Shown: one piece after another, positions 33,078 to 61,400 of the stretch
Layout of the letters: every line of letters starts with the position of its first letter
Numbering within the stretch: the stretch's first letter is position 1
Assembly: GCF_040869035.1 (NCBI RefSeq)
Contig: NZ_CP162100.1
Coordinates: forward strand, 62,001 to 126,000
DNA length: 64,000 nucleotides
Direction: 5' to 3'
Origin: Vibrio sp. NTOU-M3
Lineage (GTDB): Bacteria; Pseudomonadota; Gammaproteobacteria; Enterobacterales; Vibrionaceae
Made by a program: the position numbers and the translations under genes
The notes under the pieces: generated by a model
Seen by the model: only the letters and a program-made list of their open reading frames with translations
Told to the model about the DNA's origin: nothing
Databases searched by the model: none

Positions 33078-33086
33078 TCTTTTTCC

Positions 33087-33845: not shown

Positions 33846-33852
33846 ATATGTG

Positions 33853-36492: not shown

Positions 36493-36500
36493 AAAATTCT

Positions 36501-37343: not shown

Positions 37344-37353
37344 GTGCGAGGCC

Positions 37354-38046
37354 TTATTTTTGTCCGTAGTATGAGTTCTTTCCGTGTTTACGGTTGTAGT
37401 GTTTATCAAGCAGTTCAGGTTGAATCGCCACCTCGGGGTTGATTGAGCGAGTTGCGGTTGCCATCGCTGCGATTTCTTCCATCACAACAGCGTTGTGGAC
37501 AGCATCTGAACCATCTTTACCCCAAGTAAATGGTGCGTGACCAGCAATGATCGCACCTGGCATTGCTTGCGGATCAATATCGCGTTGGTTGAACTCTTCG
37601 ACGATCACAAGACCAGTGTTTTTCTCGTAATCAGATTCTATTTCTGCTTTGGTAAGAAGTCGGGTACAAGGTACATCGCCGTAGAAGTAGTCGGCATGTG
37701 TGGTGCCTAGTGCAGGAATATCTAGGCCTGCTTGCGCCCAAATCGTCGCGTTACGAGAGTGCGTATGAACAATGCCGCCAATTGATGGAAACGCTTTGTA
37801 GAGTTCAATGTGTGTCGCGGTATCACTAGATGGGTTCATTGTTCCTTCAATACGATTGCCTTCAAGGTCGACAATTACAATGTCGTCTGCCGTCATTACA
37901 TCGTATTCAATGCCAGAAGGTTTAATCGCAATGACACCATGTTCGCGGTCGATTTCAGAGACGTTACCCCAAGTGAAAGTAACAAGTCCGTATTTAGGAA
38001 GTTGTAAGTTAGCTGCGAGAACGCGAGCTTTTAATTCTTGGTACAT
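37354..38046 (-). CDS. sgbE: L-ribulose-5-phosphate 4-epimerase (SgbE/UlaF/AraD)
   Basis: This class II aldolase-fold epimerase turns L-ribulose-5-P into D-xylulose-5-P, the exit of the pathway. In 230 residues the landmarks are [50 protein letters not shown] (Asp at the usual catalytic position), the zinc pair in [10 protein letters not shown], and [13 protein letters not shown]. It lies between the TRAP binding protein and the HAD gene. Confidence 0.94.
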
Positions 38047-38148
38047 AGTGATTTTCCAATGTTCAATAAGTAGAAGTAAGAAGGATGGAAATTAAGGCTG
38101 CCTCAGTGGATTGGCTGAACAGCCTTCATCGGTTGATGTGCTTGAGGT

Positions 38149-39123
38149 CTACTTAGCAGCAACCTTGATCTTGTTGATCATCACATCACCGTTTTTCTCG
38201 ATGTAAGCGTTCCATACAGGTTGAATGGCTTCTTGGAAGGCTTTGCCATCCACGTCGCGGTTAACTTGCATGCCATTAGCCTCAAGCTGAGCAATCATCT
38301 CCTCTTCTTTATCCATAGCTAACTTACGTTGCATCGCGACTGCTTCCGCCGATACCTCTTTGATGATTCTCTGTTCTTCATCACTTAGTTTGTTGAACTT
38401 ACGTAGGTTCATTGTAAGAACCAGCGGTGAGTAAGCGTGTTGTGTCAGGCTTAGGTACTTTTGGACTTCGTCGAATTTGAACGATAGCGTTACAGGGATA
38501 GGGTGATCTTGTGAATCAACGACACCTGTTTCAAGCGCGGTATATAGTTCAGACACTGGCAACTGCTGTGGGTTAGCGCCTAGCTCGTTGAACATATCGT
38601 TCAGCGCTTTAGAGCCGTTTACACGCATTTGCAAACCTTTAACGTCAGAAGGAACACGGATAGGTTTTTTGTTGTTGGTCATGTTGCGGTAGCCATTCTC
38701 TGGGAAGCCAAGACCTTTTAAGCCAAACTTCTCAAATTTGGTTAGCACTTCTTGACCCGGCTCTCCATCTAATACTTTGTATGCAGTTTGGCGATCGGGG
38801 AACATGAACGGTAGCGTAAATGCCGCAGATTCAGGCATTAAGCCGTTGTAGTTGTTTAAACCAACCATCGTCAAATCAACGATGCCAGCACGCGCACCAT
38901 CGATCATCTGCTTATCACTGCCTAGTTGACCTTGAGGGTATACGTTGACTTTGATTTCTCCATTTGAACGAGCTTCTACTTCTTTCTTAAAGAAAAGAGA
39001 TAGGTCTTGTTGCAGGTCAGACTCAGGTGCCGCGTGTGCAAGCTTTAGAGTCGTTGCAGCAAACGTGTTAGCGCTCATCGCGATGGTTGAAGCGAGTAGA
39101 GTCATTTTTAGTAGGGTTTTCAT
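38149..39123 (-). CDS. yiaO: TRAP transporter solute-binding protein (YiaO/DctP)
   Basis: This 324-residue periplasmic protein starts with a signal peptide (MKTLLKMTLLASTIAMSANTFAA), followed by TTLKLAHAAPESDLQQDL, the DctP signature region PIRVPSDVKGLQMRV with the substrate-anchoring arginine, and SELYTALETGVVDSQDHPI. It should bind 2,3-diketo-L-gulonate. The ATG at 39123 is chosen because it begins the signal peptide; the frame extends upstream to 39243 into the permease gene. Confidence 0.93.
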   Translation of the reverse strand: MKTLLKMTLLASTIAMSANTFAATTLKLAHAAPESDLQQDLSLFFKKEVEARSNGEIKVNVYPQGQLGSDKQMIDGARAGIVDLTMVGLNNYNGLMPESAAFTLPFMFPDRQTAYKVLDGEPGQEVLTKFEKFGLKGLGFPENGYRNMTNNKKPIRVPSDVKGLQMRVNGSKALNDMFNELGANPQQLPVSELYTALETGVVDSQDHPIPVTLSFKFDEVQKYLSLTQHAYSPLVLTMNLRKFNKLSDEEQRIIKEVSAEAVAMQRKLAMDKEEEMIAQLEANGMQVNRDVDGKAFQEAIQPVWNAYIEKNGDVMINKIKVAAK

Positions 39124-39145
39124 TATTGTTTTCTCCGTCCGAGGA

Positions 39146-40426
39146 TTAACCAATGACATACGACATTGGCACAGTGATAATGCTTGGAAATATGACAAAC
39201 AGTGTGAGCAGGGCCATGTAAGCAGCAATGAAGGGCAAGACACCTTTCACAGCAGTAGACATTGGCACTCTAGCTACACCACACACAACGTTTAGTACGG
39301 TGCCTACAGGAGGCGTTATTAGGCCAATTGAACAGTTAATAACAAACAGCAAGCCAAAATAAGTTGGGTCGATTCCTGCCATTTTGATAACAGGCATTAA
39401 TAGGGGTACAAGGATTAGAATGGTTGGGCTTAAGTCCATCACCATACCGACACACAGAACAAGTAGCATGATGACTGCCATTAGAAGTCGAGGACTGTCG
39501 ACCAATGGGCCTAACATTTCTGCAAGTTGCTGAGGCAATTGAGCAACGGTGATTAACCACGCTGCGACCATGGCACAACCCACTAAGAACATCACCATCG
39601 CTGTAGAGCGACCAGCATTAAGCACAATGTGGTAGAACTTTTTAATCGTGAGCTCTTTATAAACAAAGGTAGAGATGAAGATTGCGTAAGCTGCTGCGAC
39701 AACCGCCGCTTCTGTTGGGGTAAAGATACCGAAGCGGATACCCACAATGATGATGACAGGTAAGCACAGAGCCCAGATACCATCTTTCAATGCGGCGCGT
39801 TTTTCTGCTTTGGTTGCGCGCTCAGAGGTTGCTAAGTTCTCTTTGCGAACCGTCATGCGCCACACAAACATCAATGTCATACCCATCAATAAGCCAGGAA
39901 CAATACCGCCTAGGAAAAGGTTTTTAATTGAAATACCTCCTGCAACACCGACTAAGATAAGTGGAATTGAAGGTGGGATAACCGGGGCGATGATGCCGCC
40001 TGAAGCGAGCAGACCCATTGATGGTGCTTCTGGGTATTTAGCTGCTTTCATCATTGGGTAAAGGATACTCACCAATGCTGCTGCATCTGCTACCGCTGAA
40101 CCTGAAAGACCGGCAAGTAGAACCGAAGTCATGATGGCTACGTAACCTAAGCCTCCTTGGCGGTGACCAACATACGTAGTAGCTAGTCGAACAATGCGTT
40201 GTGACAAGCCACCCGACGCCATTACTTCACCAGCAATTAGGAAGAATGGGATTGCAAGTAGCGTAAAGCTGTCGACACCATTAATTAAAGACTGCGCAAG
40301 AATGTCCGCACTAAAGAAATCCATGTGCAGCATCAGTGCCATTGAAGATAATAGCAGTGCAAACGCAACAGGAAGACCAAGCAAGATTGAGACAATCAAT
40401 ACCGATAAGAAAATGGCTAACGTCAT
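39146..40426 (-). CDS. yiaN: TRAP transporter large permease (YiaN/DctM)
   Basis: The 426-residue DctM-type protein has 11-12 membrane segments. Landmarks are LLAIPFFLIAGEVMASGGLS, GLSGSAVADAAALVSILYPM, ASGGIIAPVIPPSIPLILVG and CSIGLITPPVGTVLNVVCGV. It forms the sodium-driven channel with the small subunit; the two genes overlap by one base (TAATG). Confidence 0.95.
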   Translation of the reverse strand: MTLAIFLSVLIVSILLGLPVAFALLLSSMALMLHMDFFSADILAQSLINGVDSFTLLAIPFFLIAGEVMASGGLSQRIVRLATTYVGHRQGGLGYVAIMTSVLLAGLSGSAVADAAALVSILYPMMKAAKYPEAPSMGLLASGGIIAPVIPPSIPLILVGVAGGISIKNLFLGGIVPGLLMGMTLMFVWRMTVRKENLATSERATKAEKRAALKDGIWALCLPVIIIVGIRFGIFTPTEAAVVAAAYAIFISTFVYKELTIKKFYHIVLNAGRSTAMVMFLVGCAMVAAWLITVAQLPQQLAEMLGPLVDSPRLLMAVIMLLVLCVGMVMDLSPTILILVPLLMPVIKMAGIDPTYFGLLFVINCSIGLITPPVGTVLNVVCGVARVPMSTAVKGVLPFIAAYMALLTLFVIFPSIITVPMSYVIG

Positions 40427-40914
40427 TATTCTTTCTCCTCTTCTAAGCTATCTAGTTGCCAGTCAGGGTTGAAGATTCGAACAAACGCAATCACAGACAT
40501 TAACACGCCTGACACCACGCCAGCTAAATAAAATAATGCCGAAGGAAGCCCTGTAAGTTGAGAAATATCTGACCAGTTGGACATCATTTGACGGTATGAA
40601 CCGATGTAAAGCATGCCGACTGAAACCAGAACTACCACCCAACAAATTCGTCTTAGTACGGGCACTGCTTTAGGGAAAAGTCGTTCAGAAAATTCTGCAA
40701 CAGCGAGGTGCTCACCTCGGCGCAGCACAACGGTTGCACCGAGCATCACAATCCATACAAGACCAAGGCGAGATAGTTCTACAGAGGGACGAAGACCGGA
40801 GGAAAAGCCGTAACGTAGCACCACGTTTGTGAAGACCAGTACAATCATACAAGTCAGAATAACGGCCATAATGACGTCGATACTTTTCCAAATACTCTTA
40901 AATACACTTTGCAT
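40426..40914 (-). CDS. yiaM: TRAP transporter small permease (YiaM/DctQ)
   Basis: The 162-residue DctQ-type subunit has four membrane segments with VILTCMIVLVFTNVVLRYGF and the family block RRGEHLAVAEFSERLF. I start it at the ATG at 40914 (MQSVFKSIWKSID), where GAGGTGGG stands upstream. The ATG at 40962 would overlap the dlgD gene. Together with the large permease and binding protein it makes a complete TRAP system. Confidence 0.92.
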   Translation of the reverse strand: MQSVFKSIWKSIDVIMAVILTCMIVLVFTNVVLRYGFSSGLRPSVELSRLGLVWIVMLGATVVLRRGEHLAVAEFSERLFPKAVPVLRRICWVVVLVSVGMLYIGSYRQMMSNWSDISQLTGLPSALFYLAGVVSGVLMSVIAFVRIFNPDWQLDSLEEEKE

Positions 40915-40937
40915 AAAGCTTGCCCACCTCAGGCTAA

Positions 40938-41939
40938 TTACAGAGACGTAATTTGGTCCCAAATACTGTCATTAATCTCAATGCCACCAGCAGCTTCATG
41001 TCTGTTGATGAAGTTCTGAATTTCAGAACCTGCAATCATTACTGAACCTGTTTCTGCTGGCTCTGATGCCAGTACGTAGTCACGGATACGCTTCATTTCT
41101 TGAGCGTATTGACCTTCACCCATTGTTTTGCTTAGGTCAATTGCGATAAGGAATTGTGAAACGCCGAACTCGCCACCCATGTCTTCTGTCAGAGCTGGAA
41201 CTGAGTTACCACCAGTGATAGCGGTTAGCATCATGTCTAGTACGATAGCCATTGAAGAACCTTTCCAGAACCCCATTGGTAGTAGGCGTTTGTTTTCCCA
41301 AAGTACGTGAGGGTCTTGGGTTAGGTTGCCTTCGTTGTCGAAGCCACCCACAACAGGGAGTTCTTTGTCTGCAAGTACGAAGTTTTGAAGTTGGCCGTAC
41401 GAGAATTGTGTCATTGAGCAGTCAACCACGACCGGTGGATCGCCTGCGATAGCCATGATCAGAGGATTAGAACCAACGCGGTGATCTTTACCACCCCAAG
41501 CTGGCATTACTGCGATAGAGTTTGTTGATGCTATACCTGCAAAACCTTCACGAGCCATTTTCAGAACGTATGCACCACCACGCATCCAGTGGTTCGAGTT
41601 ACGCATACCCACCATGCCGATGCCGTAGTCACGAGCCAATTCCATTGCACGTTCAGCACAGATAAGACCGTTCAGTACGCCAGGACCAAAATTACAATCC
41701 CATTGCTCAAGTGCACCCATGCTGTTCACACATTCAGGCTCTGCGTTAAGCTTGATTTGACCTTTGTCTACTTGGTCAATGAACACTGGGAAACGGTTGA
41801 TGCCGTGCGAATAAGTACCTTCATTAGCCATCTCAACAAAACCCGCGGCAAGCTTGGTTGCCATCTCTGGTTTCATGTGTCGAGCTAGTAGGATTCGTTC
41901 ATATTCTTGTTGTAGTTTTTCAGTGGATACTAAAGGCAT
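40938..41939 (-). CDS. dlgD: 2,3-diketo-L-gulonate reductase (YiaK/DlgD)
   Basis: DlgD reduces 2,3-diketo-L-gulonate to 3-keto-L-gulonate with NAD(P)H. The 333-residue malate/lactate dehydrogenase-2-type enzyme shows ANEGTYSHGINRFPVFIDQV with the catalytic His, MVGMRNSNHWMRGGAYVLKM, VGSNPLIMAIAGDPPVVVDC and PMGFWKGSSMAIVLDMM. It is the first gene of the operon on the minus strand, behind an IclR-type operator candidate. Confidence 0.94.
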   Translation of the reverse strand: MPLVSTEKLQQEYERILLARHMKPEMATKLAAGFVEMANEGTYSHGINRFPVFIDQVDKGQIKLNAEPECVNSMGALEQWDCNFGPGVLNGLICAERAMELARDYGIGMVGMRNSNHWMRGGAYVLKMAREGFAGIASTNSIAVMPAWGGKDHRVGSNPLIMAIAGDPPVVVDCSMTQFSYGQLQNFVLADKELPVVGGFDNEGNLTQDPHVLWENKRLLPMGFWKGSSMAIVLDMMLTAITGGNSVPALTEDMGGEFGVSQFLIAIDLSKTMGEGQYAQEMKRIRDYVLASEPAETGSVMIAGSEIQNFINRHEAAGGIEINDSIWDQITSL

Positions 41940-42404: not shown

Positions 42405-42745
42405 ATTATCCGCATTTTCCTAATTTAACTGATTATTCTAAGTAAATTTTGTCTGTGCGACCTGAAGTCGTATGAAGCGTTGTTCATCGCTTTATGAATG
42501 AACCATCTGTATCACCAGATGAACCTACGAGCCTGAATAAAGCAGCGGCTCGGACAATGTAATGAAGAGCTATTTTAAATTGCTCGGGATCGAAATCGTG
42601 AGAGGCAGATCCTCCTGATAACCACATGAATCGGGTGAGTGCTAGGTAGTCAGTATGATGAACGTAAGTGAATCCATGAAAGGTGCGTTATGTGACGAAA
42701 CAGCGGAAGTGGTTAATACGCTGTAGCCAAAGGCAATGAGAGTCG

Positions 42746-42770
42746 GAAAGAGGTTGGACAATACTCTTTC
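42746..42770 (+). other. EBS1 hairpin of the group II intron
   Basis: GAAAGAG and CTCTTTC form a perfect 7-bp stem with the 11-base loop GTTGGACAATA. GGACAA in the loop (42756-42761) can pair with TTGTCT, the six bases just upstream of the intron (one G-U pair). This is the expected EBS1-IBS1 contact about 300 nt into the intron. Confidence 0.7.
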
Positions 42771-43034
42771 GTGATCGCAGTGCTCTCCGCCCTATAGTGG
42801 ACATCTAAGCTGATATTTTACGCGACATACGGAACAGGGTAAGCCCGTATTACTCCCTATGGGAAAGCCTTTGTGGCCGATAGTGATGCGGGTAAAGGAG
42901 GTCGGAAAAAGCGAAAGCTGCATTGTAATGATGCAGATACAGGTTAATGCCTGATCATCACGAAAGTGAGCCCACTTCCGACTGGTCTCCCATTGCGAGA
43001 GAATTTGAAGAACTTCATTTAAGGAGAAAAGCAA

Positions 43035-44506
43035 ATGATGGTCTCGAAAGAGATTAGTGCATCTTCTGACAGTGCTCAGTGGCAGTCTATTGACTGGAGA
43101 TCCGCTGAAGCTCACGTATTAAAGCTTCAAATGCGTATCGCAAAAGCACAAGAGAAAAGAAATACGGTAAGGTGAAATCCTTACAGCGGCTCTTAACTCA
43201 TTCTCGCTCAGCAAAACTTCTTGCTGTCAGGCGAGTCTCACAAAACAAAGGCAGCAAAACGCCCGGAATGGATGGCGTTATCTGGAACACGGATGCACGC
43301 CGTATGAAAGCGGTTAATCAACTGAGTCGCAAGACTTACAAAGCAAAACCACTTAAACGTATCTACATCCCCAAAAAGAATGGCAAACTCAGACCTCTAG
43401 GTATCCCGTGCATGATAGATAGACCGCAACAAGCGCTCCACCTGCTTGCATTAGAGCCTGTTTCTGAAACATTAGCCGACCTCAATAGCTATGGATTCAG
43501 ACCAAACCGTAGCACTGCCGATGCTATCGCGCAGTGCTTTAAGTGCTTGGCTATGAAGAGATCAGCAAAATGGGTTCTTGAGGGCGATATCAAAGCTTGC
43601 TTCGATAAAATCGGGCATCAATGGCTTATGGATAATATCACCGTAGATAAACGTATGTTAGAGCAATGGCTGAAATCTGGTTTTGTGGATAAAGGCCGGT
43701 TCTATGACACTGATGAAGGTACGCCACAAGGAGGGAGCATCTCTCCAACTTTGATGCTAACGACCCTCGCTGGGATAGAACAACGCATAAAATCCACAGC
43801 ACTCAGAAAAGGAGCTAGAGCTAACTTCATTGGTTATGCTGATGATTTCGTGGTCACTTGTTCTTCAAAGGAAGTGCTAGTGAGCGATATCAAACCGTTG
43901 ATTGCTGACTTTTTGGCTGAAAGAGGGTTAACCCTATCCGAAGAGAAAACGAAGGTTACTCATATTGATGATGGTTTTGACTTTCTGGGCTTCAACCATA
44001 GGAAGTACAAAGGGAAATTGCTCATTAAACCAAGCAAGTCCAACACGCTGTTATTTTTGAGGAACCTACGTGAACTTATCAAAAAGCACGTAACTATCCC
44101 AGTTAATGATCTTATCAAACTGATAAATCCAAAACTCAGAGGATGGGCGAATTACTACCGCCACTGCGTTGCTAAACAAGTATTCGGGTATGTAGGTCAC
44201 AAACTATTCCAAGCGCTATGGCACTGGGCAGTTAGGCGCCATCCAACCAAGTCTAAAGACTGAGTCGTTCATAATTATTTTCTCAATCGAAAAGGCCAAT
44301 GGCAATTTCATGGTTGGCAGAAAATTATGAACATGGATTGTCACTTCAATTTGTTCCAAATATCAAAAGTGCCAATAGAACGACATGTGAAAATCCAAAG
44401 TGCTGCGACTCCTTACGACCCCGACTATCAAGACTACTTGGTCAAGCGGAAGTCAAAGAGACAAGCACGTAACTCGTGGGTTGAACCTGTTCCAACTGCT
44501 CTATGA
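43035..44506 (+). pseudogene. ltrA: Group II intron reverse transcriptase/maturase, frameshifted and with nonsense codon
   Basis: A start at 43035 (MMVSKEISASSDSAQWQSID) has AAGGAG 8 bases upstream. That frame stops at TGA 43173 after reading IAKAQEKRN where IAKA-TREKKYGKVKSLQRLL is expected, a single-base loss. The long open part (from 43172) has RT blocks PLGIPCMIDRPQQALHLLAL, SYGFRPNRSTADAI, GTPQGGSISP and the catalytic FIGYADDFVV, then the maturase region KLINPKLRGWANYYRH. A TGA at 44261-44263 replaces the expected Trp, and the same frame continues VPIERHVKIQSAATPYDPDY to a stop at 44504-44506. The enzyme is thus broken at both ends. Confidence 0.88.
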
Positions 44507-44542
44507 GTTGCTGGGTATCAAATGATGCCTTAGTGGAGGCTT

Positions 44543-44576
44543 GAGCCTAGTGCAGTGAAAGTTGCACGCTGGGTTT
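44543..44576 (+). other. Domain V of the group II intron
   Basis: GAGCC-TAG-TGCA-GTGAAAGT-TGCA-CGCT-GGGTTT folds as the short conserved domain V hairpin with a GAAA-type tip and a two-base bulge. Domain VI follows as GACGGCACTTG / CAAGTGTCGTC around 44584-44610. Confidence 0.75.
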
Positions 44577-44617
44577 TTAGGGAGACGGCACTTGGTAACA
44601 AGTGTCGTCCACCCGAC

Positions 44618-45311: not shown

Positions 45312-45962
45312 CTATTTTTTTATTAGTTGGCCATAGGTTTTAAATTTCTCTGCCATAATTGCCATTTCGTCATCACTTAAGATTGCTGGTTTACCGAAGT
45401 TCGCTGCAATGCAGTGAATTTTAGCGCAGTGTTCAATTTGTTCTGCAATGTTGAATGCGGTGTCTAAATCTTCGGCACCCGTTAACAAGCCATGGTTAGC
45501 AAGCAAAACTGCTCGACGATCGACCATCGACTCAAAGACCGATTCTGCCAGCTCTTGTGTACCAAAGGTTTGATATTCTGCACAACGAACGTCTTTACCT
45601 GAAAATGCCACTAAATAGTTGGATGCTGGGAGTGACTGTCGTAGTGTAGCAATTGCCGTACAATACGTTGAATGAGTATGGACAATGGCATTCAAATCAT
45701 TGCGGCGATCATAAAAAATTTTGTGCATATTCCATTCACTGGATGGTTTACGAACAGAGTCAACACACTTGCCTTGCATGTCCATAATGACGATGTCTTT
45801 TGGTTCTGCATCAAAATAATCTATGCCACTTGGGCTCATGGCAATCAGTTGTTGCTCGCGATTAAAAATTGAGACGTTACCTCCAGTGCCTACAGTCAGT
45901 CCATGAGTGACGAGTTTTTTGCAAGTTTCTACAATTTCAATGCGTTCTTTTTCTAATAACAT
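45312..45962 (-). CDS. Class II aldolase (L-fuculose-phosphate aldolase-like)
   Basis: This 216-residue zinc aldolase has GLTVGTGGNVSIFNREQQLI at the phosphate site, catalytic Glu76 (KPSSEWNMH), zinc ligands His95 and His97 (AIVHTHSTY) and His157 (LLANHGLLTG). FucA-type enzymes split a ketose-1-phosphate into DHAP and an aldehyde. Here it follows mtnA and deoD on the same strand, so its likely substrate is 5-deoxyribulose-1-P or ribulose-1-P, giving DHAP plus acetaldehyde or glycolaldehyde. That assignment is by context; an Ald2-type DHAP-shunt aldolase is the closest known idea. Confidence 0.85.
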   Translation of the reverse strand: MLLEKERIEIVETCKKLVTHGLTVGTGGNVSIFNREQQLIAMSPSGIDYFDAEPKDIVIMDMQGKCVDSVRKPSSEWNMHKIFYDRRNDLNAIVHTHSTYCTAIATLRQSLPASNYLVAFSGKDVRCAEYQTFGTQELAESVFESMVDRRAVLLANHGLLTGAEDLDTAFNIAEQIEHCAKIHCIAANFGKPAILSDDEMAIMAEKFKTYGQLIKK

Positions 45963-46040
45963 GATTAAATCTCATTAATAAGCCTCACCAGTCGTGATTA
46001 CCTATATTTCTATTCTCAAGTGGTAAGGCTTGAAAAATAG

Positions 46041-47138
46041 TTAAGCGTTCATAATCTCTGGAAAAAGAGCTTCCAGGCCAGCATTGGTAGACTCGCACAC
46101 GCCTTTTTCAGTAATCAAACCAGTAACATATTCAGAAGGTGTAACATCAAATGCATAGTTTCCACACGTAGTACCTGCTGGTACGGTGTTTACAAAGTTG
46201 CGTTTGCCGTTGGTGTCGATACCTTGCACATGTGATTGCTCGGCGCCATCACGCTGTTCAATTGGAATATCGGTAACGCCGTTCCATACGGTTGGATCGA
46301 TAGTTGGCGAAGGTAGCGCAACGTAAAACGGTACGTTGTTAGCGTGAGCGGCAAGCGCTTTTAGGTAGGTGCCTATTTTGTTGCAGACGTCTCCACGGGC
46401 AGTAATTCGGTCGGTGCCTACAATTACCATATCTACTTCACCTTTTTGCATTAGGTGTCCACCTGCGTTATCAGCAATAAGAGTGTGAGGAATACCATGA
46501 CCACCTAACTCGAACGACGTCAGGGCACCTTGATTACGTGGGCGAGTTTCATCAACCCAAACATGAATTTTTATACCTTCGTTGTGTGCTAGGTACATCG
46601 GCGCTGTTGCAGTGCCCCAATCTACCGTCGCTAACCAACCAGCGTTACAATGGGTCAAGATATTTACTACCTCATCTTCTTTTTTTGTGCTGGCAATTTT
46701 ACGGATGATTTCAAGGCCGTGCATACCAATACTGTGGTTAATCTCAGCGTCTTCATCACAGATGATACCAGCTTCAATGTAAGCAGAAATAGCGCGTTTG
46801 TGTGCTGGTGTGCTTTCTAATAGTTTGCGAATGCGGTCTAATGCCCACTGTAAGTTAATTGCTGTAGGACGAGTACTAACAAGGGTATTGTATGCAGATT
46901 CAATTGCTTGATCGCTATTATCTGCCATCATTGCGAAAGCCATACCGTAAGCACCTACACAACCAATTAGAGGTGCACCTCGTACTTTCATCGAAACAAT
47001 TGCTTCAGCCACTTGTTCCATAGTTGTTAACGTTAAGATCTCAAACTCGTATGGAAGCTTTTCTTGATTGAAAATGTGGATACCTTGTTTGTCTTTTGTA
47101 GTCCAGATTGAGCGATAACTCGTGCCGTTGATTTTCAT
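46041..47138 (-). CDS. mtnA: MtnA-type (deoxy)ribose-1-phosphate isomerase
   Basis: The 365-residue protein has the MtnA motifs [39 protein letters not shown] with catalytic Cys164, and [20 protein letters not shown] with Asp243, plus the [13 protein letters not shown] block. MtnA isomerises 5-methylthioribose-1-P to the ribulose form. No mtnB, C, D or K genes are near, so the classical methionine salvage pathway is not encoded here. Adjacent deoD and aldolase genes point to use on 5-deoxyribose-1-P or ribose-1-P. The mtnA-aldolase gap is 78 bases. Confidence 0.9.
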
Positions 47139-47172
47139 ATAAATTCCTGCGTAGTAGAGGGTGATTGTTGGG

Positions 47173-47880
47173 TTACAACTCGATTGCAGTTTCGAGCGCT
47201 AATTCAATCATTTGGTGTAATGAGAGTTCACGTTGCTCTATCGTCAACTTACCGCCGTTTTTGATATGGTCGGTGGTTGTTAGAATGCCTAAAGCCTTGG
47301 CTCCAAGTTCTGCTGCGACTGCATAAAGGCCCGCAACTTCCATATCAACGCCAACAATGCCATACTGTTCCAACACATCGAAAAGCTCTGGATCTGGGCC
47401 GTAGAACAAGTCACATGTGAATAAGTTACCTACTTTGATATTTAGCTCTTTTTCTCGCGCTTTATTTACTGCTGTTTCCAGTAGTGTGTAATCAGCAATT
47501 GCTGCAAAATCGTGCCCTTTGAATCGGTCACGGTTAGTCTTTGAGTCGGTACTCGCTCCCATTGCGACTACAATATCCATCAGTTCAATATCATTACGCA
47601 CTGAGCCACAAGAACCTATTCGAATAAGGTTTTTAACGCCAAATTCATTAATTAGTTCATAGGCATACATGGAAATGGAAGGGATCCCCATACCATGGGC
47701 CATCACAGAAAGACGTTTACCTTTGTAGCTCCCGGTATAACCGAGCATGTTACGTACGTTATTCACTTCAACAGCGTTTTCTAAATATTTTTCAGCAATA
47801 TATTTTGCTCTTAATGGATCGCCCGGCATGATGACGGTTTCAGCAAAATCACCCGGGTTAGATCGAATAGCAAGTGCCAT
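47173..47880 (-). CDS. deoD: Purine-nucleoside phosphorylase, DeoD type
   Basis: DeoD cleaves purine nucleosides with phosphate to base and ribose-1-P. The 235-residue product begins [20 protein letters not shown] with the [20 protein letters not shown] block, then [40 protein letters not shown] and [10 protein letters not shown] with the catalytic Asp. I start it at the ATG at 47880 with AGGAG upstream; the frame is open to 47952. It is an extra island copy, first gene of the minus-strand arm of the nucleoside cluster. Confidence 0.93.
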
Positions 47881-48089
47881 GGTTATTCTCCTATGGATTC
47901 GGTAGATGTCATTTTGAAAGTTCATCAGAGCAACGAGTGAGATCGGGATCACGTTAGTTATTTCATGAAGTGTGAAAAATGAACTTGTTATCTATATAAG
48001 TTGATATTGAATTTAAACTTATAAAACTATTAGCAATGGAGATTTGTAGGGATAATAGGCTTTATTTGATATGTTTATTAGTAACAAAC

Positions 48090-48105
48090 TGTGTTCAAAG
48101 TCACG
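48090..48105. promoter_or_regulatory. Candidate CRP site in the divergent promoter
   Basis: TGTGTTCAAAGTCACG fits the CRP consensus TGTGA-N6-TCACA at eight of ten fixed positions. It lies 68 bp before nupC and 210 bp before deoD, where control of both arms by carbon status is plausible. Confidence 0.45.
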
Positions 48106-48172
48106 AAGTTCCCTAAAAGCTGTATGAGATGATCCTTGACAATCAATTGCAAATATTAAATAGGAACCCGCG

Positions 48173-49441
48173 ATGTTTTCATTCGTAAGTATATTAGGAA
48201 TAGTTGCTCTTCTTGGCGTAGCGTATTTTTTATCAGAAAACAGAAAAGCAATAAGTTTTAGGACCGTCGGGCTTTCGTTCGCTATTCAGTTTTTTATAGG
48301 TGGACTGATACTTTCTTCTTCTATAGGTCAAAATATCATTCTCGTAATGGCGAATGCTATGTCATCTATTATTTCGTACAGTAACGATGGTATCCGTTTT
48401 CTTTTTGGTGGCTTAGTAAGCGATAAGATGTTCGAGTTGTTTGGCGGGGATGGATTCGTTATCGCTTTTAGAGTTTTGCCCATTATCGTCTTTTTCTCTG
48501 CCTTGTCTGCTGTGCTTTACCATCTAGGTATCATGCAGTTTGTTGTTAAATGGCTTGGGGGCGCGTTGCAAAAACTGCTTGGCACCAGTAAAGCGGAGTC
48601 CATGTCAGCAATCGCAAACGTGTTTCTCGGTGTTACTGAAGCTCCTCTTTTAGTTAAACCATATATGAACAGTATGACGCGTTCAGAATTGTTTGCTGTG
48701 ATGTGTGGCGGTTTGGCCTCTATTGCTGGCACTATGCTACTAAGTTACGCCCAATTAGGTGTGAAGATGGAGTATCTATTAGCTGCATCTTTCATGGCTG
48801 CTCCAGGGGGGCTTTTGTTTGCCAAAATCATGATTCCGGAAACAGACCCCGTATTGGATGCCAATTTAGGTGAATCGGCTACTAGTCAAAACGCGAACAT
48901 CATCGATGCGGCAGCAACTGGTGCCTCAAATGGTGTGGCACTTGCGATTAATGTCGGTGGTATGCTTCTCGCGTTTGTGGGCTTAGTTGCAATGCTTAAC
49001 GGTATGTTGGGAGGCATTGGCGGCTGGATTGGTATTGAGGCATTAAGCTTACAAATGATCCTTGGCTACTTATTTGCTCCAATCGCATGGTTAATGGGGG
49101 TACCTTGGTCTGAAGCGACGCTTGCTGGTTCATTTATTGGCCAGAAGGTAGTCATTAACGAATTTTTTGCTTACATCAACTTAGCTCAATATTTAAGTGG
49201 TGATGCTGTAGTTGCGACTACTGGTCTGCCTATGTCCGAAAAAACTCAGGTTATAGTCTCATTCGCTCTGTGTGGATTTGCTAACTTTGGCACGGTGGCG
49301 ATTGCCATTGGTGGTATCGGCGGCATGGTTAAAGACCGACGTAAAGAAATAGCGGCGCTAGGGTTTAAAGCTTTGATTGCTGGCATTTTATCTAACCTGA
49401 TGGCTGCAACTATTGCTGGTTTGTTTATCGGCTTTGCTTAA
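48173..49441 (+). CDS. nupC: NupC-type concentrative nucleoside transporter
   Basis: This 422-residue CNT-family symporter has SIIGQ-like early segments, the nucleoside gate VTEAPLLVKPYMNSMTRSEL, MCGGLASIAGTMLLSYAQLG, GASNGVALAINVGGMLLAFV and FALCGFANFGTVAIAIGGIG. It takes up nucleosides with protons or sodium. It opens the plus-strand arm of the cluster and would supply the substrate to the deaminase and phosphorylase. Confidence 0.95.
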   Translation: MFSFVSILGIVALLGVAYFLSENRKAISFRTVGLSFAIQFFIGGLILSSSIGQNIILVMANAMSSIISYSNDGIRFLFGGLVSDKMFELFGGDGFVIAFRVLPIIVFFSALSAVLYHLGIMQFVVKWLGGALQKLLGTSKAESMSAIANVFLGVTEAPLLVKPYMNSMTRSELFAVMCGGLASIAGTMLLSYAQLGVKMEYLLAASFMAAPGGLLFAKIMIPETDPVLDANLGESATSQNANIIDAAATGASNGVALAINVGGMLLAFVGLVAMLNGMLGGIGGWIGIEALSLQMILGYLFAPIAWLMGVPWSEATLAGSFIGQKVVINEFFAYINLAQYLSGDAVVATTGLPMSEKTQVIVSFALCGFANFGTVAIAIGGIGGMVKDRRKEIAALGFKALIAGILSNLMAATIAGLFIGFA

Positions 49442-49476
49442 TCGGGAAACTTTCATTGAGTATTTGGAGAACAACA

Positions 49477-50631
49477 ATGACTACCAACGTATTACCGAAA
49501 GTTATTTTGCACGAACATATTGAAGGATCAGTAACGCCAAAGATTGCTAAATTGTTAGCTGCGACTCATAACATTACACTGCCAGAAGATTTCTTTTATT
49601 CGCCTGGTTCGTATGATGAGACTGACTTCCCAAATGGTCGTTATCTATATGATGAAAGCGACTTTGGTGCGTTTATTACTACATACGATAAAGTCGCCAA
49701 CTTGGTTCGCGAGCCTTTAGATTATTATTTGGTGGTGAAAGATTATCTATCACGTAATGCTCAGCAAGGCATGATCTACTGTGAAATTATCACGTCAGCA
49801 TTTCACCTATGTTTGGATACTGATGGTCAGTTAAACGCTGAAAAATACCATGCGATTATGGATAAAGTAGAGCAAGCGATTAAGGAAGTTTATGAAGAGT
49901 TTGGCACCGTGACTCGGTTACAAGCTTGCGCAGTGCGCCATTTAAGTGCTGATGAACTCGCGATGAGCATGCAGTTTATGGAACAGAACCCTAGGGAGAT
50001 TATCACGGGTTTTAATATCGCGGGTAATGAGATGGCTGGGCAGTTTGCGGATTTTACCAACATCCATGAAAGTGCTGACAGGATGGGCTTACACAAGTCC
50101 TATCACGCGGGTGAAATCTGTGGCCCAGAGAGCATCACCGAGGCATTAAAACATGGTGCGAAACGCATTGGCCATGGTATTCGTGCGATTGATGATGAGA
50201 CCGTCATCGCCGAACTTATCAATAACAACATCACGCTTGAAGTTTCTCCAACTAGCAACCGGATTTTGGTGCCACAAATGGAACAGTCTCTGGTTAACCA
50301 CCCGTTAAGAAAGTTATACGACAAAGGTGTTCGCCTTTCGGTAAACACAGACGACGCTGGTTTATTTGGTACTGATGTGGACAAAGAGTATCAAGTTGCT
50401 GAAATGCAATTTGGTTTTAATCGAATAGAGTTGTTAGATGTGACGTTATGTGCCCTTGAAGCTGCATTTGTTGAAGAGGTTTCTAAACAAGCATTAATTA
50501 ACAGTGTGTATGAGCAGTTTACCTCAGAAGACGGTAAGCAGCTTGCTCAGTATTGTGAGCGATTGGCTGAAGGAGCATTGAAGTCCCGATTAACAGAGCG
50601 ACTGCAACGTATAACGAAGGAGCGCCAATGA
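49477..50631 (+). CDS. Adenosine deaminase-family enzyme
   Basis: The 384-residue metallo-amidohydrolase has HEHIEGSVTP (His12, His14 metal pair), a central KSYHAGEICGPESI (His and catalytic Glu), RIGHGIRAIDD, the SPTSN loop and SVNTDDAGLFGTD (Asp ligand). The HEHIEG spelling departs from the usual H-x-H-L-D/E-G of Add, so a changed substrate is possible; 5'-deoxyadenosine deaminases are within the wider family. I start it at the ATG at 49477 rather than the TTG at 49456. It overlaps the xapX start by four bases. Confidence 0.87.
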   Translation: MTTNVLPKVILHEHIEGSVTPKIAKLLAATHNITLPEDFFYSPGSYDETDFPNGRYLYDESDFGAFITTYDKVANLVREPLDYYLVVKDYLSRNAQQGMIYCEIITSAFHLCLDTDGQLNAEKYHAIMDKVEQAIKEVYEEFGTVTRLQACAVRHLSADELAMSMQFMEQNPREIITGFNIAGNEMAGQFADFTNIHESADRMGLHKSYHAGEICGPESITEALKHGAKRIGHGIRAIDDETVIAELINNNITLEVSPTSNRILVPQMEQSLVNHPLRKLYDKGVRLSVNTDDAGLFGTDVDKEYQVAEMQFGFNRIELLDVTLCALEAAFVEEVSKQALINSVYEQFTSEDGKQLAQYCERLAEGALKSRLTERLQRITKERQ

Positions 50632-50807
50632 ACGAAGTAATATTAGCGCTGTTTTCTGGTCTCATTGTCGGAGTGGTTTTTACGGCAATAAAATTACCTA
50701 TACCTGCTCCCCCGGTTATGTCTGGAGTGGTCGGTATTATTGGTGTCTACTTAGGTTCAGTTGTGTATACGAACTTTATTAGTAATATAGTACAAAGGCT
50801 ATTTTAG
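50628..50807 (+). CDS. xapX: XapX-domain membrane protein
   Basis: This 59-residue protein (MNEVILALFSGLIVGVVFTA, then IKLPIPAPPVMSGVVGIIGV, then YLGSVVYTNFISN) is two membrane helices joined by the XapX hallmark PIPAPP-x-x-x-G-x-x-G-x-x-G-x-x-LG. The domain is named from the xanthosine phosphorylase locus and often sits with nucleoside or amino acid genes; its function is unknown. It starts within the deaminase stop (ATGA) and a terminator follows. It is easily missed because of its length. Confidence 0.85.
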   Translation: MNEVILALFSGLIVGVVFTAIKLPIPAPPVMSGVVGIIGVYLGSVVYTNFISNIVQRLF

Positions 50808-50831: not shown

Positions 50832-50859
50832 AGACCAACAGTAAGTGTTGGTCTTTTTT
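50832..50859 (+). terminator. Intrinsic terminator of the nupC-add-xapX operon
   Basis: AGACCAACA (50832-50840) and TGTTGGTCT (50846-50854) form a 9-bp stem with a five-base loop, followed by six T. Confidence 0.92.
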
Positions 50860-50871
50860 ATTGGGAGTACT

Positions 50872-52329
50872 ATGGCAAATAATTTCCCTATTTTTGATGA
50901 ACCATACAAAGGTATGCAAGTTAACTATTGCGTTTCTGCGGAATGCGAAAACTTTGGCATCAGCGATCCCGCGCTATATCAAGATGTAAAAAATGATCAG
51001 AACCTGAATATTTACTTTTGCCCCAAGTGTGGCTCTTATCCACAGAAGATTGACAATAAAGCTATTTATCAATCAGTTCAGTACCAGAAACAGCATCATG
51101 GGCTAAAGATAATCTCTTGCCCGCATGAACAATGTGGCTCACACGGTTTTTCTGTTCATACTCATATGAACAAATATCGCTCATTTGGAAAAACTAATAC
51201 ATTAAAGCAACGGTATCAGTGTCGCGAGTGCAAGTGCGTTTTCACTGATCGTTTCTCTGGTATCAATACTCACCTTGAACTGCAGAGCGCACTATTTTAT
51301 GGTATGAAATACAATCAAGGCGTGAGGAATCTTTGCGCGTTGGAAGGAATTACGCCAAAAGCTTTTTACACGCATCAAAGAGATATGGTCGATAGACTTA
51401 AATATCTCGCTCATGTCGAAGAGTATCAATTCTTTAATACTGCGGACGAATGTCATCTTGTGACGGGTTATCGATATATTAATAAAGCGAGTCGGGCGAT
51501 TATTGTTGCGAGCGTACATAACCAGAGTGGTTATGTTTTGGGGTTTGATACCAATATATCAAAAAACATTGATAAAAGTTGCTTGCTTGACAAACCTAAA
51601 TCAAAGCGTCGTGTTCGTATTTCGCCCATTGAAGAGAAAGGTGATTTGATGTCCCAAATTCTAGCGGGGTATGACGAGATCATGTCAAGAACGAACTATC
51701 TCGATCCTGCAAGTAATGGTACGGTTGTGGATCGAAAGTCACCTGAGCTTACTCAGCCCTATCTATGCAGCTTTGCACATGCACTCGTAATGCACCGTAA
51801 GCTAAAGTGTAAATCGCAACTATATTACTTTGTTGAACAAGAGACAATGCTACGAAATGCGTTCATTAACGCCTCTTTGGATGAGTTAAAAACGCAAGGT
51901 GCTCAGTTGTTCTATTACAAAGAGAGCTTAGAAAAAATGGAATGGTTCGATAAAGATAGATTGCACGTGAAAAACGTTGGTTGGTGGCAAGATAAGTGGG
52001 GTTTTGTCGCAATGCCTGATCGAACAAAAGGCGCATGTCACATCAAAGGCAATGGCTTAACACTTGAGAAATGGAAAGCTCTGACTGTGGAAACCTCCCT
52101 CAACGATGTGATGCGTTATTTAGACTTATCGTCAAGTTTTTTAAGAACGTTGGTTAACACAGTGAATCACCAGTCAATCAATGACTGGTTACATATCTTC
52201 ACAGCCTATTACAACTATTGTATTCCGAAAAAAAACGGTAAAACACCTGCTCAATTGATGGGGTTTACAGATAGAACGATGGGGTTGAGCGAACTTCTTA
52301 GTGGCGGATATGCCATAAGGGCTCGATGA
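50872..52329 (+). CDS. Zinc-ribbon, transposase-like protein
   Basis: This 485-residue protein has three Cys pairs reading like zinc ribbons near the N-terminus: CVSAECENFG with FCPKCGSYPQK, SCPHEQCGSHGF, and YQCRECKCVFTDRFSG, the last resembling IS1 InsA-type transposase fingers. The remainder (HLELQSALFYGMKYNQGVRN, and a C-terminal HIFTAYYNYCIPKKNGKTPA) has the integrase-like tail 'YYNYxxPKKNGKTPAxL' seen in transposases that end with a DDE core. I start it at the ATG at 50872 because the earlier ATG lies inside the terminator. It is intact and no inverted repeats were seen, so it may be a domesticated transposase. Function unproven. Confidence 0.6.
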   Translation: MANNFPIFDEPYKGMQVNYCVSAECENFGISDPALYQDVKNDQNLNIYFCPKCGSYPQKIDNKAIYQSVQYQKQHHGLKIISCPHEQCGSHGFSVHTHMNKYRSFGKTNTLKQRYQCRECKCVFTDRFSGINTHLELQSALFYGMKYNQGVRNLCALEGITPKAFYTHQRDMVDRLKYLAHVEEYQFFNTADECHLVTGYRYINKASRAIIVASVHNQSGYVLGFDTNISKNIDKSCLLDKPKSKRRVRISPIEEKGDLMSQILAGYDEIMSRTNYLDPASNGTVVDRKSPELTQPYLCSFAHALVMHRKLKCKSQLYYFVEQETMLRNAFINASLDELKTQGAQLFYYKESLEKMEWFDKDRLHVKNVGWWQDKWGFVAMPDRTKGACHIKGNGLTLEKWKALTVETSLNDVMRYLDLSSSFLRTLVNTVNHQSINDWLHIFTAYYNYCIPKKNGKTPAQLMGFTDRTMGLSELLSGGYAIRAR

Positions 52330-57548: not shown

Positions 57549-58466
57549 ATGAAATTAAGCAAAAAAGATAGTGCGTTTGGTCGTCATGAAACATTTCCGT
57601 TGCGATATAGTTGGTTACCTAAAGGCTTTCAAGAATTTCAAAAGAACAAAAAAATATTTGAAAGTGATGAGTCAACAGTAAGGCTTGGTGTTGGTAAAAA
57701 TATGGTTTCATCTATCAAATATTGGATGAAGGCAACTCAGTTACTAGATAATCAAAATGAACTGACACCACTTGCACATTTTTTGCTGGATGAAGATTTT
57801 GGGGTGGATCCTTATTTGGAAGATGAATCTACTATTTGGTTGCTGCATTGGCTTTTATCCACGAACAGTAGGCAGTCTACCACTTGGTTTTGGTTTTTTA
57901 ATAAATATGTATCTACAGAGTTTGATGTTTCCATGATGCAGGTGGCTTTGGAAAGCTTCATTGCTGATCAGTTAGAAATAAAACCCCCATCTAAAGTCAC
58001 ACTGAAAAATGACTGTGGAGTTTTGACTAGGATGTATTCTCAAGAAGTAGGAAGCTCCAGTCTCCATTCAGATGATACTTTGGACTCTCCTATGTCTTTG
58101 CTAGGTCTTGTCAGAAAAGTAGACAACAAACGATTCAGTGCAGAGCTAAGTAGCCGGCCAGACCTGCCGATAGGTATTTTTGGATTTGCTTTAGCGCAGT
58201 GTATCAATGAATATACACATGACAGTAGTCGTTCAACAATGCCAATTAAAGATCTGGTTTATAGTATTGAAGGGTCGCCTTCTGCGGCTGCGGTTTTTCG
58301 TCTCACAGAAGCAGACTTCATGACTAAAATTGAATTGTTGCAGCATAAATATTCCAACATTTTTACGATTCGTGAAACTGCAGGCGTTTCACAGATATAT
58401 CTGGAGCAGAATAGCCCTATTGATTGCATGAGTTTCCTAGCTGCTCATTATCGTGGGGAGCTGTAG
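57549..58466 (+). CDS. sspB: SspB-like DUF4007 protein of a phosphorothioation system
   Basis: This 305-residue protein has the DUF4007 pattern: DSAFGRHETFPLRYSWLPKG at the N-terminus, VRLGVGKNMVSSIKYWMKAT and LLDEDFGVDPYLEDESTIWL, ending QIYLEQNSPIDCMSFLAAHY. In the known SspABCD system SspB is a DUF4007 nickase needed for single-strand phosphorothioation. The gene is followed after two bases by a large ATPase, then a PAPS reductase-like gene and a DUF262 gene, in the Ssp order. The LexA box above suggests DNA-damage control. Confidence 0.8.
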   Translation: MKLSKKDSAFGRHETFPLRYSWLPKGFQEFQKNKKIFESDESTVRLGVGKNMVSSIKYWMKATQLLDNQNELTPLAHFLLDEDFGVDPYLEDESTIWLLHWLLSTNSRQSTTWFWFFNKYVSTEFDVSMMQVALESFIADQLEIKPPSKVTLKNDCGVLTRMYSQEVGSSSLHSDDTLDSPMSLLGLVRKVDNKRFSAELSSRPDLPIGIFGFALAQCINEYTHDSSRSTMPIKDLVYSIEGSPSAAAVFRLTEADFMTKIELLQHKYSNIFTIRETAGVSQIYLEQNSPIDCMSFLAAHYRGEL

Positions 58467-58468
58467 TT

Positions 58469-61400
58469 ATGAGCTTAGAAAACACAATCAGTATTCGTGC
58501 TTCATACACACGCTCTATTAACGTAGAGAAACACAAATCATCTACTGATAGTATTATTGGCTACGTACCAACATCTCGTGCTTTAAGTACCTTAGAAAGA
58601 GTTGTAGGGACATTAAACAATAAAGAAGTTCCTCGTTCTTGGTCTTTGGTTGGGCCTTATGGGGCAGGTAAGTCTGCTTTTGCGGTTTTTCTTAGTGCAT
58701 TACTATCTGATCCTAAAGGGGATTTGTTTAAATTCTCACACGCGAATCTCGGCAATGAAAACGCAAAGCTTACAAGTGAAATTAGTAAGGATGTTGAGGC
58801 TACACAAGGATATATTCGTGTCTTAATTTGTGGTTCAGCAGAACCTTTGAGCATTCGAATAGTAAAGTCGTTGAAGGAAAGTTGTGAGGAAGTATGGAGT
58901 GGTACTTCAGGTAAGAAGCCCGAAGTATTTAAGCAGTTAGAAGATGTTATTGCTAGAAATAGTGTGACAGCATCAGGCTTAGTTGACTTGATTTCTAACG
59001 TTCAAAGTGCAATTGATAAAAGTAAATCAATTAATGCCAAAGGCATCGTATTTATTATCGATGAGCTGGGTAAGTTTTTGGAGTATGCGGCACGACATAA
59101 AGAAAGCAATGAGCTATTCGTTTTACAAGCTATAGCTGAACATGCCCAGCAGCCCCATAGCGTGCGAATACTGCAGTTTGTGATGTTACACAAGTCTTTC
59201 GAGCAGTATGCTCAGGGGCTGACAGAAAATGCTAGAAATCAATGGTCAGCTGTTCAAGGACGGTTTGAAGAAGTTCCTTTTATTGAGAATAATGAGCAGG
59301 TTTTAAGAGTTGTTTCACGAGCGATTAAACAAACGCAGGAAATTAAGCAAAACTCAAAGCTGGAAGCAGTAGTTAATTCCCACACTAGAGTATTGCTCGC
59401 AGAGGCTGCAACCCCGTCAACACTGAAACAAAGTGAAGCTTCTCAGCTGTTTCTAGATTGCTACCCCTTACACCCAGTAAGTGCACTATTGTTACCTCTA
59501 TTGTGTCAGCAAGTTGCTCAGAATGAGCGTACCTTGTTTAGTTATCTTGGTAGCTCAGAGCAGTTCGGTTTCCAACAAAAAATCAACACACTACAGAGCG
59601 TTGGTGATTTTGTTTTTCCCGTAGATATTTATGACTATTTTATCTCCAATCAAACCTCTGTATTAGGTGACTTACAAACGAGCCGACGTTGGGCAGAGGT
59701 TGTAACTGCAGTAGAAAGGCTTGGGGATGCGAACAGTCAAACTACAATTGATCTTCTTAAAACAATAGGGATATTAAATATTGTAGGTGCTAGAGGTGGC
59801 TTTAAGCCGTCACGACAAATTTTAGAAACATGTTTCAATCAGCAAGAGTTAGATAAAGCTCTTGATGAACTTTTAGATAAGTCAATAATTACTTTACGAA
59901 AATTCAACAACGAATACCGCGTTTGGCAAGGTAGTGATTTCGACCTGTATTCTTCTGTTGCAGAAGAGATCCAAAAAATTAAGGTATCGAATAGCTCATT
60001 GGCAGATGACCTTCAGGCATCAAGCCCGATGCCTCCCGTTGTTGCCAGAAAGTATAGCATTACAACAGGCGCTCTCCGTTATTTTTCTCCAGTATATGCA
60101 GATGCTCTTACGATAACTTCAATAGCAACTAGTTCGTCTTGCTCTAAGATAATCTTCTACTTGTTAGCTGAGGGTGAACCTCCAGTTTCTAAAGATGTAC
60201 TTTCTAGTATAGGTGCAGGAAATATTTTATGCGAAGTTTCCAATAGCGCTCAACTCTCTTCAGTTACTAGGGAGATTAATGCATATAAGAGGGTTTCGAA
60301 CAAGAGAGAAATTCATGAAGATCCTGTTGCAAAAAAGGAACTAGAAGCTAATTTGTCCAAGTTATTGGTAACCCAAAAACAACTTTTGAATGAACTGATT
60401 AGTTTACCCGAACAATCAACGTGGTATCACGATGGTAAAGTAAAAAATGTAGCTGCAAAACGGGATATGCAAAGATTGCTGTCGGATGTAATGGAACAGA
60501 AGTATCATTCGACTCCTAGGGTTTTTAATGAATTAATAAACAAGGATAAGCCTTCATCTCAGGCCGCTTCAGGTCGTTCTAAGTTAATGAAGGCAATGCT
60601 TTCAAACCCTAATATCGATCAGTTGGGAATAGAAAAATTCCCTCCTGAAAAAGCCATGTATATGGCAATTCTCAAAGATTTGAAGTTACATGTGTGCCAC
60701 AAGGGGCATTTTGAGTTCTCTCCACCAGTAGAAAATTCATATTTGGGGGTTTGGCATGAGATTTCGAAACACTTAGATTCCACAGAGGAAGAAGCAAAGT
60801 CTTTTTCTGAGTTAGATTCGCTACTCACAAATTCTCCTTTTGGGGTTAAAAAAGGTTTGCTACCGATCTATTACTTGCACGCTTACCTTGTATATAAAGA
60901 GGATGTGGCTGTTTATGAAGATGGGAAATATCAACCGGACATAACAGAGGAACATGTTGAAAGATTTATAAAACGTCCGGATAGCTTTACATTTCAATTG
61001 TATAAATTAGAAGGTCTAAACGCATCTATTTTTGATGCATATAGCCAAGCATTGTATAACGGAAAATTAAACAGCAATAAAGTTGTCAAGATCGCTCAAC
61101 CTTTAGCCAGATTCTTTAATGATCTGCCAGAGTTTACTCGCTCTACCAGAGAGTCAAGTTTATTATCTAAACAGGCAATAGATGTTCGTGAAGCTATTAA
61201 AATGTCTAAGTCACCAGAAAGACTTGTATTTTCAGATATTCCCAAAGCTATTGGTCTGAAAGAACTCACAGATAATACTGACATAGACTCTAAGAAATTT
61301 GGTGAGATATTAGTAGAGTCATTACGTGAGTTGAAAAGCGCATATCCAAGACTCCTAAAGAGCTTGGCTCATATGCTTGCTGAACAATTATATGATGGAA

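Follow-up and report, generated by a model that had tools for sequence, protein, structure and literature searches.

S-adenosylmethionine chemistry widely gives rise to 5'-deoxyadenosine and methylthioadenosine as by-products, which were once regarded as waste (PMC12632272). In the dihydroxyacetone phosphate (DHAP) shunt, encoded by mtnK or mtnP together with mtnA and ald2, or by drdK-drdI-drdA, their sugar moieties are put to use, and E. coli strains that carry it can grow on 5'-deoxynucleosides (PMC12632272, PMC10986504). The variation of the shunt that uses MtnP is named in PMC10986504, and the paper on the aldolase DrdA draws an entry through a phosphorylase as well as clusters with methylthioadenosine phosphorylase (PMC6079011). 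Routes in which a deaminase acts before a phosphorylase have been reported for methylthioadenosine in P. aeruginosa and discussed for 5'-deoxyadenosine in M. jannaschii (PMC6302742), and the non-carboxylating pentose bisphosphate pathway of haloarchaea starts with a nucleoside phosphorylase and ends with a FucA-type aldolase that releases DHAP (PMC9700705). Here we describe a six-gene cluster at positions 45312-50807 of a 64,000-nucleotide stretch of Vibrio sp. NTOU-M3 (contig NZ_CP162100.1; the whole stretch is called the window), and we propose, with a probability of roughly 0.6, that it encodes a kinase-free version of the DHAP shunt entered at the level of the nucleoside, most likely serving 5'-deoxy purine nucleosides.

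With the DHAP shunt the cluster shares the type of isomerase, a class II aldolase predicted to yield DHAP, and linkage to a transporter. Where the shunt has MtnK plus a nucleosidase, or MtnP, the cluster has instead a DeoD-type purine nucleoside phosphorylase (PNP) without His4; no match to an MtnK-type kinase was found in the window's genome by a search that had no positive control (MtnN is present, and no genome-wide search for MtnP was made). The cluster also adds a divergent arm of NupC, a deaminase and XapX, and its aldolase belongs to the DrdA/FucA group. Judged from its sequence, the cluster would work like a DHAP shunt, and we do not class it as a canonical one. DeoD and a nucleoside transporter are known from the nucleoside catabolism of the deo operon, compared with which the cluster is without deoB and deoC, and its enzymes would isomerise the sugar phosphate between C1 and C2 and then release DHAP from it by cleavage. 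With the deamination-first routes it has in common a deaminase and a phosphorylase, there acting on 5'-methylthio or 5'-deoxy purine nucleosides; unlike them, it would cleave the sugar phosphate by an aldolase and has a linked nucleoside transporter. Unlike the haloarchaeal pathway, it has MtnA and not a ribose-1,5-bisphosphate isomerase, and neither a kinase for ribose-1-phosphate nor a phosphatase for the bisphosphate is linked to it; the bisphosphate pathway was rejected because the isomerase is of the wrong type. Canonical methionine salvage was likewise rejected, since no MtnB scores over its cut-off in the genome (one of three sub-threshold matches is the cluster aldolase itself). We see in the cluster a familiar kind of pathway in an arrangement that is new. 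A preliminary description of this DNA had suggested that the combination may be undescribed, and we found no paper on it in the titles, abstract openings and passages of the open-licence literature, although deamination first and phosphorylase entry are each already known.

Gene content of the cluster

The genome that carries the window comprises 4.86 Mb in two contigs, and the nearest relatives of its proteins that have a name come from Vibrio. All six genes of the preliminary description were recovered (NCBIfam, Pfam and reading frames) in two arms that face away from each other across a 292-base region, with aldolase, MtnA and DeoD on the minus strand and NupC, deaminase and XapX on the plus strand:

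45312-45962, minus strand: class II aldolase of the PRK06833 group (FucA/DrdA type); NCBIfam PRK06833, 341.5 bits, cut-off 264
46041-47138, minus strand: MtnA-type sugar-1-phosphate isomerase; TIGR00512, 402.5 bits, cut-off 279
47173-47880, minus strand: DeoD-type PNP with Ala at the His4 position, ATG at 47880; PRK13374, 375.3, cut-off 338
47881-48172, no strand: divergent intergenic region with CRP-like sites at 47938-47953 and 48090-48105
48173-49441, plus strand: NupC/CNT nucleoside transporter, a relative of vcCNT; TIGR00804, 448.3 bits, cut-off 442
49477-50631, plus strand: adenosine deaminase family protein with HEHIEG, ATG at 49477; PF00962; TIGR01430, 219.3, cut-off 216.55
50628-50807, plus strand: XapX small protein; TIGR03510, 58.1 bits, cut-off 27.8

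As had also been claimed, none of mtnB, mtnC, mtnD or mtnK is among the cluster genes; for mtnC and mtnD no genome-wide search was made. The window's genome has a single MtnA, and two matches of MtnN/Pfs type exceed the cut-off in it, with 335 and 85 bits. In a plasmid collection, 147 records gave partial matches and none spans 80% of the cluster.

The cluster phosphorylase has lost the histidine of its 5' site

The window's DeoD carries Ala in place of His4. Among the best 120 of 4039 homologs, the 20 nearest DeoDs (72-100% identity) have Ala at this position in 18 cases and Thr and Ser in one each; His4 is kept in all of the next 100. Arg24, Arg43, Arg87, Glu181, Asp204 and Arg217 are unchanged throughout these 20 proteins, which form one clade (SH-aLRT, an approximate likelihood ratio test, 100) in a tree of 52 rows that includes 21 of the 100 His4-bearing homologs. 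Both other DeoD copies of the window's genome retain His4. In E. coli PNP, His4 and Arg43 are supplied by the neighbouring subunit (PMC6193948), and in the hexameric PNP of B. subtilis His4 forms bonds to hydroxyls of the sugar (PMC3434127). In the structure of a PfPNP triple mutant the corresponding residue, His7, is 3 A away from the 5'-OH, and the inosine/methylthioinosine ratio of PfPNP goes from 1.6 to 0.1 in His7Ser and to 0.3 in His7Phe (PMC3885546).

The same position is altered at a variant locus (L004; L and G numbers denote loci and genomes) of Vibrio sp. 99-8-1, whose DeoD, MtnA and aldolase are 52%, 72% and 82% identical to the window's proteins. Its DeoD has Ser at the His4 position, and a uridine-phosphorylase-like protein (212 bits, under the cut-off of 280) has Ser where 119 of the best 120 of 2089 proteins have His. 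The tree requires three changes to account for the histidine losses. L004 also encodes a TsgA-like carrier, an iron alcohol dehydrogenase and two CRP/YeiL-like proteins. Loss of a histidine predicted to contact the 5'-OH, in DeoD and in a uridine-phosphorylase-like enzyme, points to 5'-deoxy- or 5'-methylthio-nucleosides as the probable substrates, and is the strongest new evidence for 5'-deoxy compounds.

Both a 5'-deoxy and a ribose substrate had been put forward in the preliminary description, and the lost 5'-OH-binding histidine favours the former. In the latter case, plain adenosine would be imported and converted through inosine to ribose-1-phosphate, then by MtnA to ribulose-1-phosphate and finally to DHAP and glycolaldehyde, a scheme that would parallel the haloarchaeal pathway without a bisphosphate. 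We regard this as unlikely, since 20/20 clade DeoDs have lost the histidine, as has a phosphorylase from a different family, and the window's genome already has two DeoDs with His4. Moreover, an MtnA acting on ribose-1-phosphate does not appear in the titles and abstract openings of the literature searched.

Isomerase and aldolase fit a DHAP shunt

The cluster MtnA scores 153.9 bits against TIGR00511 (ribose-1,5-bisphosphate isomerase), short of the cut-off of 314.1, and shares 61% identity with its counterpart in an E. coli kinase-isomerase-aldolase operon, in which the kinase and the aldolase were labelled by gene order and by eye. A 13-residue stretch and a one-residue gap after QG(A/G) are common to the two isomerases. 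We also sought a mark of MtnA specificity; 13 alignment columns split five window-type from nine kinase-type rows, and none was usable.

The cluster aldolase has 55.4% identity to DrdA from B. thuringiensis (row 6btd), with Glu at DrdA position 76, and 38% to the E. coli shunt aldolase. Against the model of the haloarchaeal ribulose-1-phosphate aldolase it gives 182.8 bits, under the cut-off of 300. DrdA cleaves 5-deoxyribulose-1-phosphate and accepts several aldehydes (PMC6079011), and on the strength of these alignments we propose that the cluster enzyme is a putative 5-deoxyribulose-1-phosphate aldolase.

The divergent arms are conserved together

MtnA is rare, being found in 8 of 296 family genomes drawn (expectation value E 1e-20) and in 9/227 genus genomes (E 1e-100). 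The loci that we read fall into two layouts, termed B (window type) and A (kinase type). Layout B, with DeoD-MtnA-aldolase opposite NupC-deaminase, was seen in five Vibrionaceae genomes, namely the window's, an Aliivibrio metagenome-assembled genome (L002), V. sinensis (L003/L104), G237 and G684. In all five the arms are divergent neighbours, and because the same order recurs in four other genomes, the association is more than chance. XapX adjoins layout B in four of the five and is missing in V. sinensis. There, the DrdA/FucA-type aldolase is replaced by a protein of the rhamnulose-1-phosphate aldolase group (L003 9195-9998; 247 bits against a cut-off of 170, and 219 against 401 with a stricter model); since this stand-in is also a class II aldolase, the replacement fits a retained aldol cleavage.

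Layout A, in nine Vibrionaceae loci (L044-L050, L103, L106), consists of a kinase, MtnA, an aldolase of 37-42% identity (none is seen in L048) and mostly an ATP-binding cassette (ABC) transporter, an arrangement similar to that of the E. coli shunt; the kinases were tested by BLAST in L103 and L106 and labelled by eye in the others. Vibrio sp. 99-8-1 also has a layout-A MtnA (L046), and the window's genome has none.

Linkage of the arms is backed further by the 19 clade DeoDs besides the window's own: by eye, 11 of them have a longest contig that matches in length that of a listed deaminase homolog, and eight have no such match; as the proteins were clustered at 90%, an unmatched DeoD says little. 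Wider draws returned only the window's genome, among 369 for the aldolase (class-wide, E 1e-60) and among 295 for DeoD (order-wide, E 1e-107), and both draws miss carriers that the genus and family searches had found. Outside the Vibrionaceae, four Pelagibacteraceae loci (L016-L019) hold an MtnA of 55% identity with a class II aldolase of 35-39% nearby, a possible DHAP shunt in SAR11; in L015, MtnA is present with no aldolase hit.

A proposed route and the observations that oppose it

The evidence gathered here consists of gene families, layout, conservation and active-site changes, from which we infer every substrate and reaction. NupC would import the nucleoside, with 5'-deoxyadenosine, 5'-methylthioadenosine and their inosine forms as candidates. 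Either ahead of phosphorolysis or alongside it, the deaminase would convert the adenine form to its hypoxanthine counterpart; DeoD-type enzymes usually accept 6-amino purine nucleosides too. DeoD, with its remodelled 5' site, would free the base and yield 5-deoxyribose-1-phosphate (or the 5-methylthio form) at no cost in ATP, standing in for MtnK or MtnP. MtnA would then isomerise the sugar-1-phosphate to its ribulose-1-phosphate form, which the DrdA/FucA-type aldolase would cleave to DHAP and acetaldehyde (or methylthioacetaldehyde). Such a route accounts for the missing kinase, the type of MtnA, the aldolase together with the protein that replaces it in V. sinensis, and the loss of the histidine. 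If it is true, some marine bacteria would be feeding on 5'-deoxyadenosine or methylthioadenosine by a transporter-linked, kinase-free route, and the absent histidine would make it simple to pick out by sequence, from the many proteins annotated just as DeoD, the phosphorylases with a preference for 5'-deoxynucleosides.

A fuller version, which we put forward tentatively and at somewhat less than even odds, is a dedicated use of environmental 5'-deoxynucleosides, in which import, deamination and ATP-free phosphorolysis by His-less phosphorylases of two families would lead into a DHAP shunt that coexists, in most carriers, with a kinase-type shunt for free 5-deoxy sugars.

A number of observations weigh against the 5'-deoxy route, the first of them from the transporter. 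We mapped the residues of NupC on vcCNT, using a chain numbering shifted by six as deduced from aligned segments. The NupCs of all five clusters retain vcCNT Glu332, Asn368 and Phe366, and vcCNT binds uridine with a dissociation constant of 36 uM and 5'-deoxyuridine with one of >2800 uM (PMC4139061). All five have Val for Gln154, a base contact, and Thr for Ser371, a ribose contact; at these positions two of the three NupC paralogs in the window's genome have Gln and Ser and the third has Met and Thr. NupC thus provides the clearest evidence against import of 5'-deoxy compounds, unless the changed residues relax the site. Of the route set out in the preliminary description, the logic of phosphorylase, isomerase and aldolase without MtnK is supported by the gene families, their conservation and the stand-in aldolase of one relative.

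The deaminase adds to these objections. A relative at L088 (59%, of another family) adjoins what looks by eye like a ribose-type ABC operon, and at nine Gilliamella-type loci of the same order (the genus is our assignment) the deaminase lies near deoB, a nupG-type carrier, cdd and deoA (all by eye), with an adjoining DeoD (59-62%) that retains His4. Four Vibrio genomes hold the deaminase with no match to MtnA. Because its relatives sit in ribose-type and nucleoside operons, the enzyme may serve plain adenosine. Deamination first, as proposed earlier, is therefore only one possible order, given the usual acceptance of 6-amino nucleosides by DeoD-type enzymes and the presence of the relatives in other operons or in genomes without an MtnA match. 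The HxHxEG motif is present in all of the best 120 of 261 deaminase homologs, and the other deaminase of the window's genome has HRHLDG there; HEHxEG as a sign of 5'-deoxy substrates was dropped, since the motif also occurs in relatives whose operons look ordinary.

The same observations lend something to use of ordinary adenosine, which would agree with the ribose-binding Glu332 and Asn368 retained in NupC and with the neighbours of the deaminase relatives. FucA-type enzymes can take glycolaldehyde, and in haloarchaea a homolog of FucA works as an aldolase on ribulose-1-phosphate (PMC9700705); the iron alcohol dehydrogenase of the variant cluster could reduce either aldehyde. They also bear on a division of labour in which DeoD, MtnA and the aldolase would clear internal 5'-deoxyadenosine or methylthioadenosine and NupC, the deaminase and XapX would scavenge adenosine, with only regulation in common. 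Consistent with such separate jobs are the four Vibrio genomes that have the deaminase and no MtnA match, the need of vcCNT binding for the 5'-OH (PMC4139061) and the 21 kb locus of Vibrio sp. 99-8-1, where no NupC or deaminase hit lies near DeoD, MtnA and aldolase. The invariable pairing of the arms in 5/5 genomes argues otherwise, as do the cluster NupC's Val154, found in none of the three paralogs, and Thr371, found in one, which hint at a changed substrate; we consider this division improbable, more so than the use of plain adenosine.

No more probable is a third alternative, compatible with either substrate reading, in which deamination comes last, with the adenine set free by phosphorolysis as the substrate of the deaminase. 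In its favour, HxHxEG is typical of the adenine deaminases of the superfamily; against it, the NTDD motif near the C-terminus is that of adenosine deaminases, and the TIGR01430 adenosine deaminase model is passed, if barely. The PRK09358 deaminase models score the cluster enzyme below their own cut-offs. Profiles of two adenosine deaminase chains in the PDB give 142 and 141 bits and that of 3rys (named adenosine deaminase 1) gives 137, so close that the adenosine and adenine types are not separated; despite its name, 3rys counts as an adenine deaminase.

Further objections to the 5'-deoxy route concern the phosphorylase. Ser203 is replaced by Thr in 19/20 clade DeoDs, so the site is altered at the base side too. 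A single origin of both DeoD His4 losses is not rejected (p 0.169), which leaves two independent losses as the firm count. In PfPNP, His7 also borders the methylthio group, and the wild-type enzyme uses methylthioinosine with its His in place, so loss of the histidine is not needed for 5'-modified substrates (PMC3885546). The change nearest to the window's, His7Ala, has a printed ratio of 2.2, that is, no shift (PMC3885546). In Table 1 of that paper the printed methylthioinosine kcat/Km of His7Ala differs ten-fold from the value implied by the kcat of 0.29 per s and the Km of 2.6 uM in the same row, from which we recomputed a ratio of ~0.2.

The aldolase is equally near to the fuculose enzyme, with 57.8% identity to the S. 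pneumoniae FucA row (4c24), and with values so nearly equal the sequence does not choose between acetaldehyde and other aldehydes. Lastly, all four layout-B genomes other than the window's carry a second MtnA (64-66%) in layout A, and this coexistence means that the two types are not simple substitutes. One possibility is that layout A would serve free 5-deoxy sugars and layout B whole nucleosides, because the ABC carrier and an RbsD/FucU-like gene (by eye) of layout A suggest sugars. The 5'-deoxy route does not yet explain NupC or the kinase-type shunt retained by the relatives.

XapX may be a general partner in nucleoside transport, because a second XapX (64%; L053 12519-12677) in the window's genome lies beside a NupC paralog (61%), about 5 kb from a canonical deoD. 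No paper on XapX was found by title in our literature search.

Intergenic region

The CRP-like site at 47938-47953 aligns across the five intergenic regions. It has nine of ten consensus bases in the four relatives, a match equalled by 4 to 14 of 1000 mononucleotide shuffles, and eight of ten in the window, where 118 of 1000 shuffles were equally good; the second window site, at 48090-48105, also has 8/10. A CRP-like site of this kind agrees with a role in catabolism, as for the E. coli shunt, but is weak in the window. No operator common to both cluster types was found in G684 and G675, whose longest shared words, of 9 and 10 bases, are different.

Surroundings in the window

Just left of the cluster lies a group II intron at 42503-44617, which Rfam matches at 42503-42642 and at 44541-44617; its maturase is encoded at 43172-44263. 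On the other side, an open reading frame of 494 aa at 50845-52329 has a weak IS1-like match under the cut-off. In L002, L041 and L105 the cluster is flanked by a protein whose start looks similar by eye, and for this reason the frame is perhaps not a mobile element but a fixed gene. Further out, an S-type pyocin/colicin DNase-domain protein is encoded at 25302-27803 (Pfam), and at 57549-62729 lie genes for SspB, SspC and SspD (PADLOC), components of a defence system of the phosphorothioate type. An operon at 32208-41939, with a tripartite ATP-independent periplasmic (TRAP) transporter, a dehydrogenase, an FGGY kinase, 4- and 3-epimerases and an IclR-type regulator, resembles those for the use of 2,3-diketo-L-gulonate or L-ribulose-5-phosphate.

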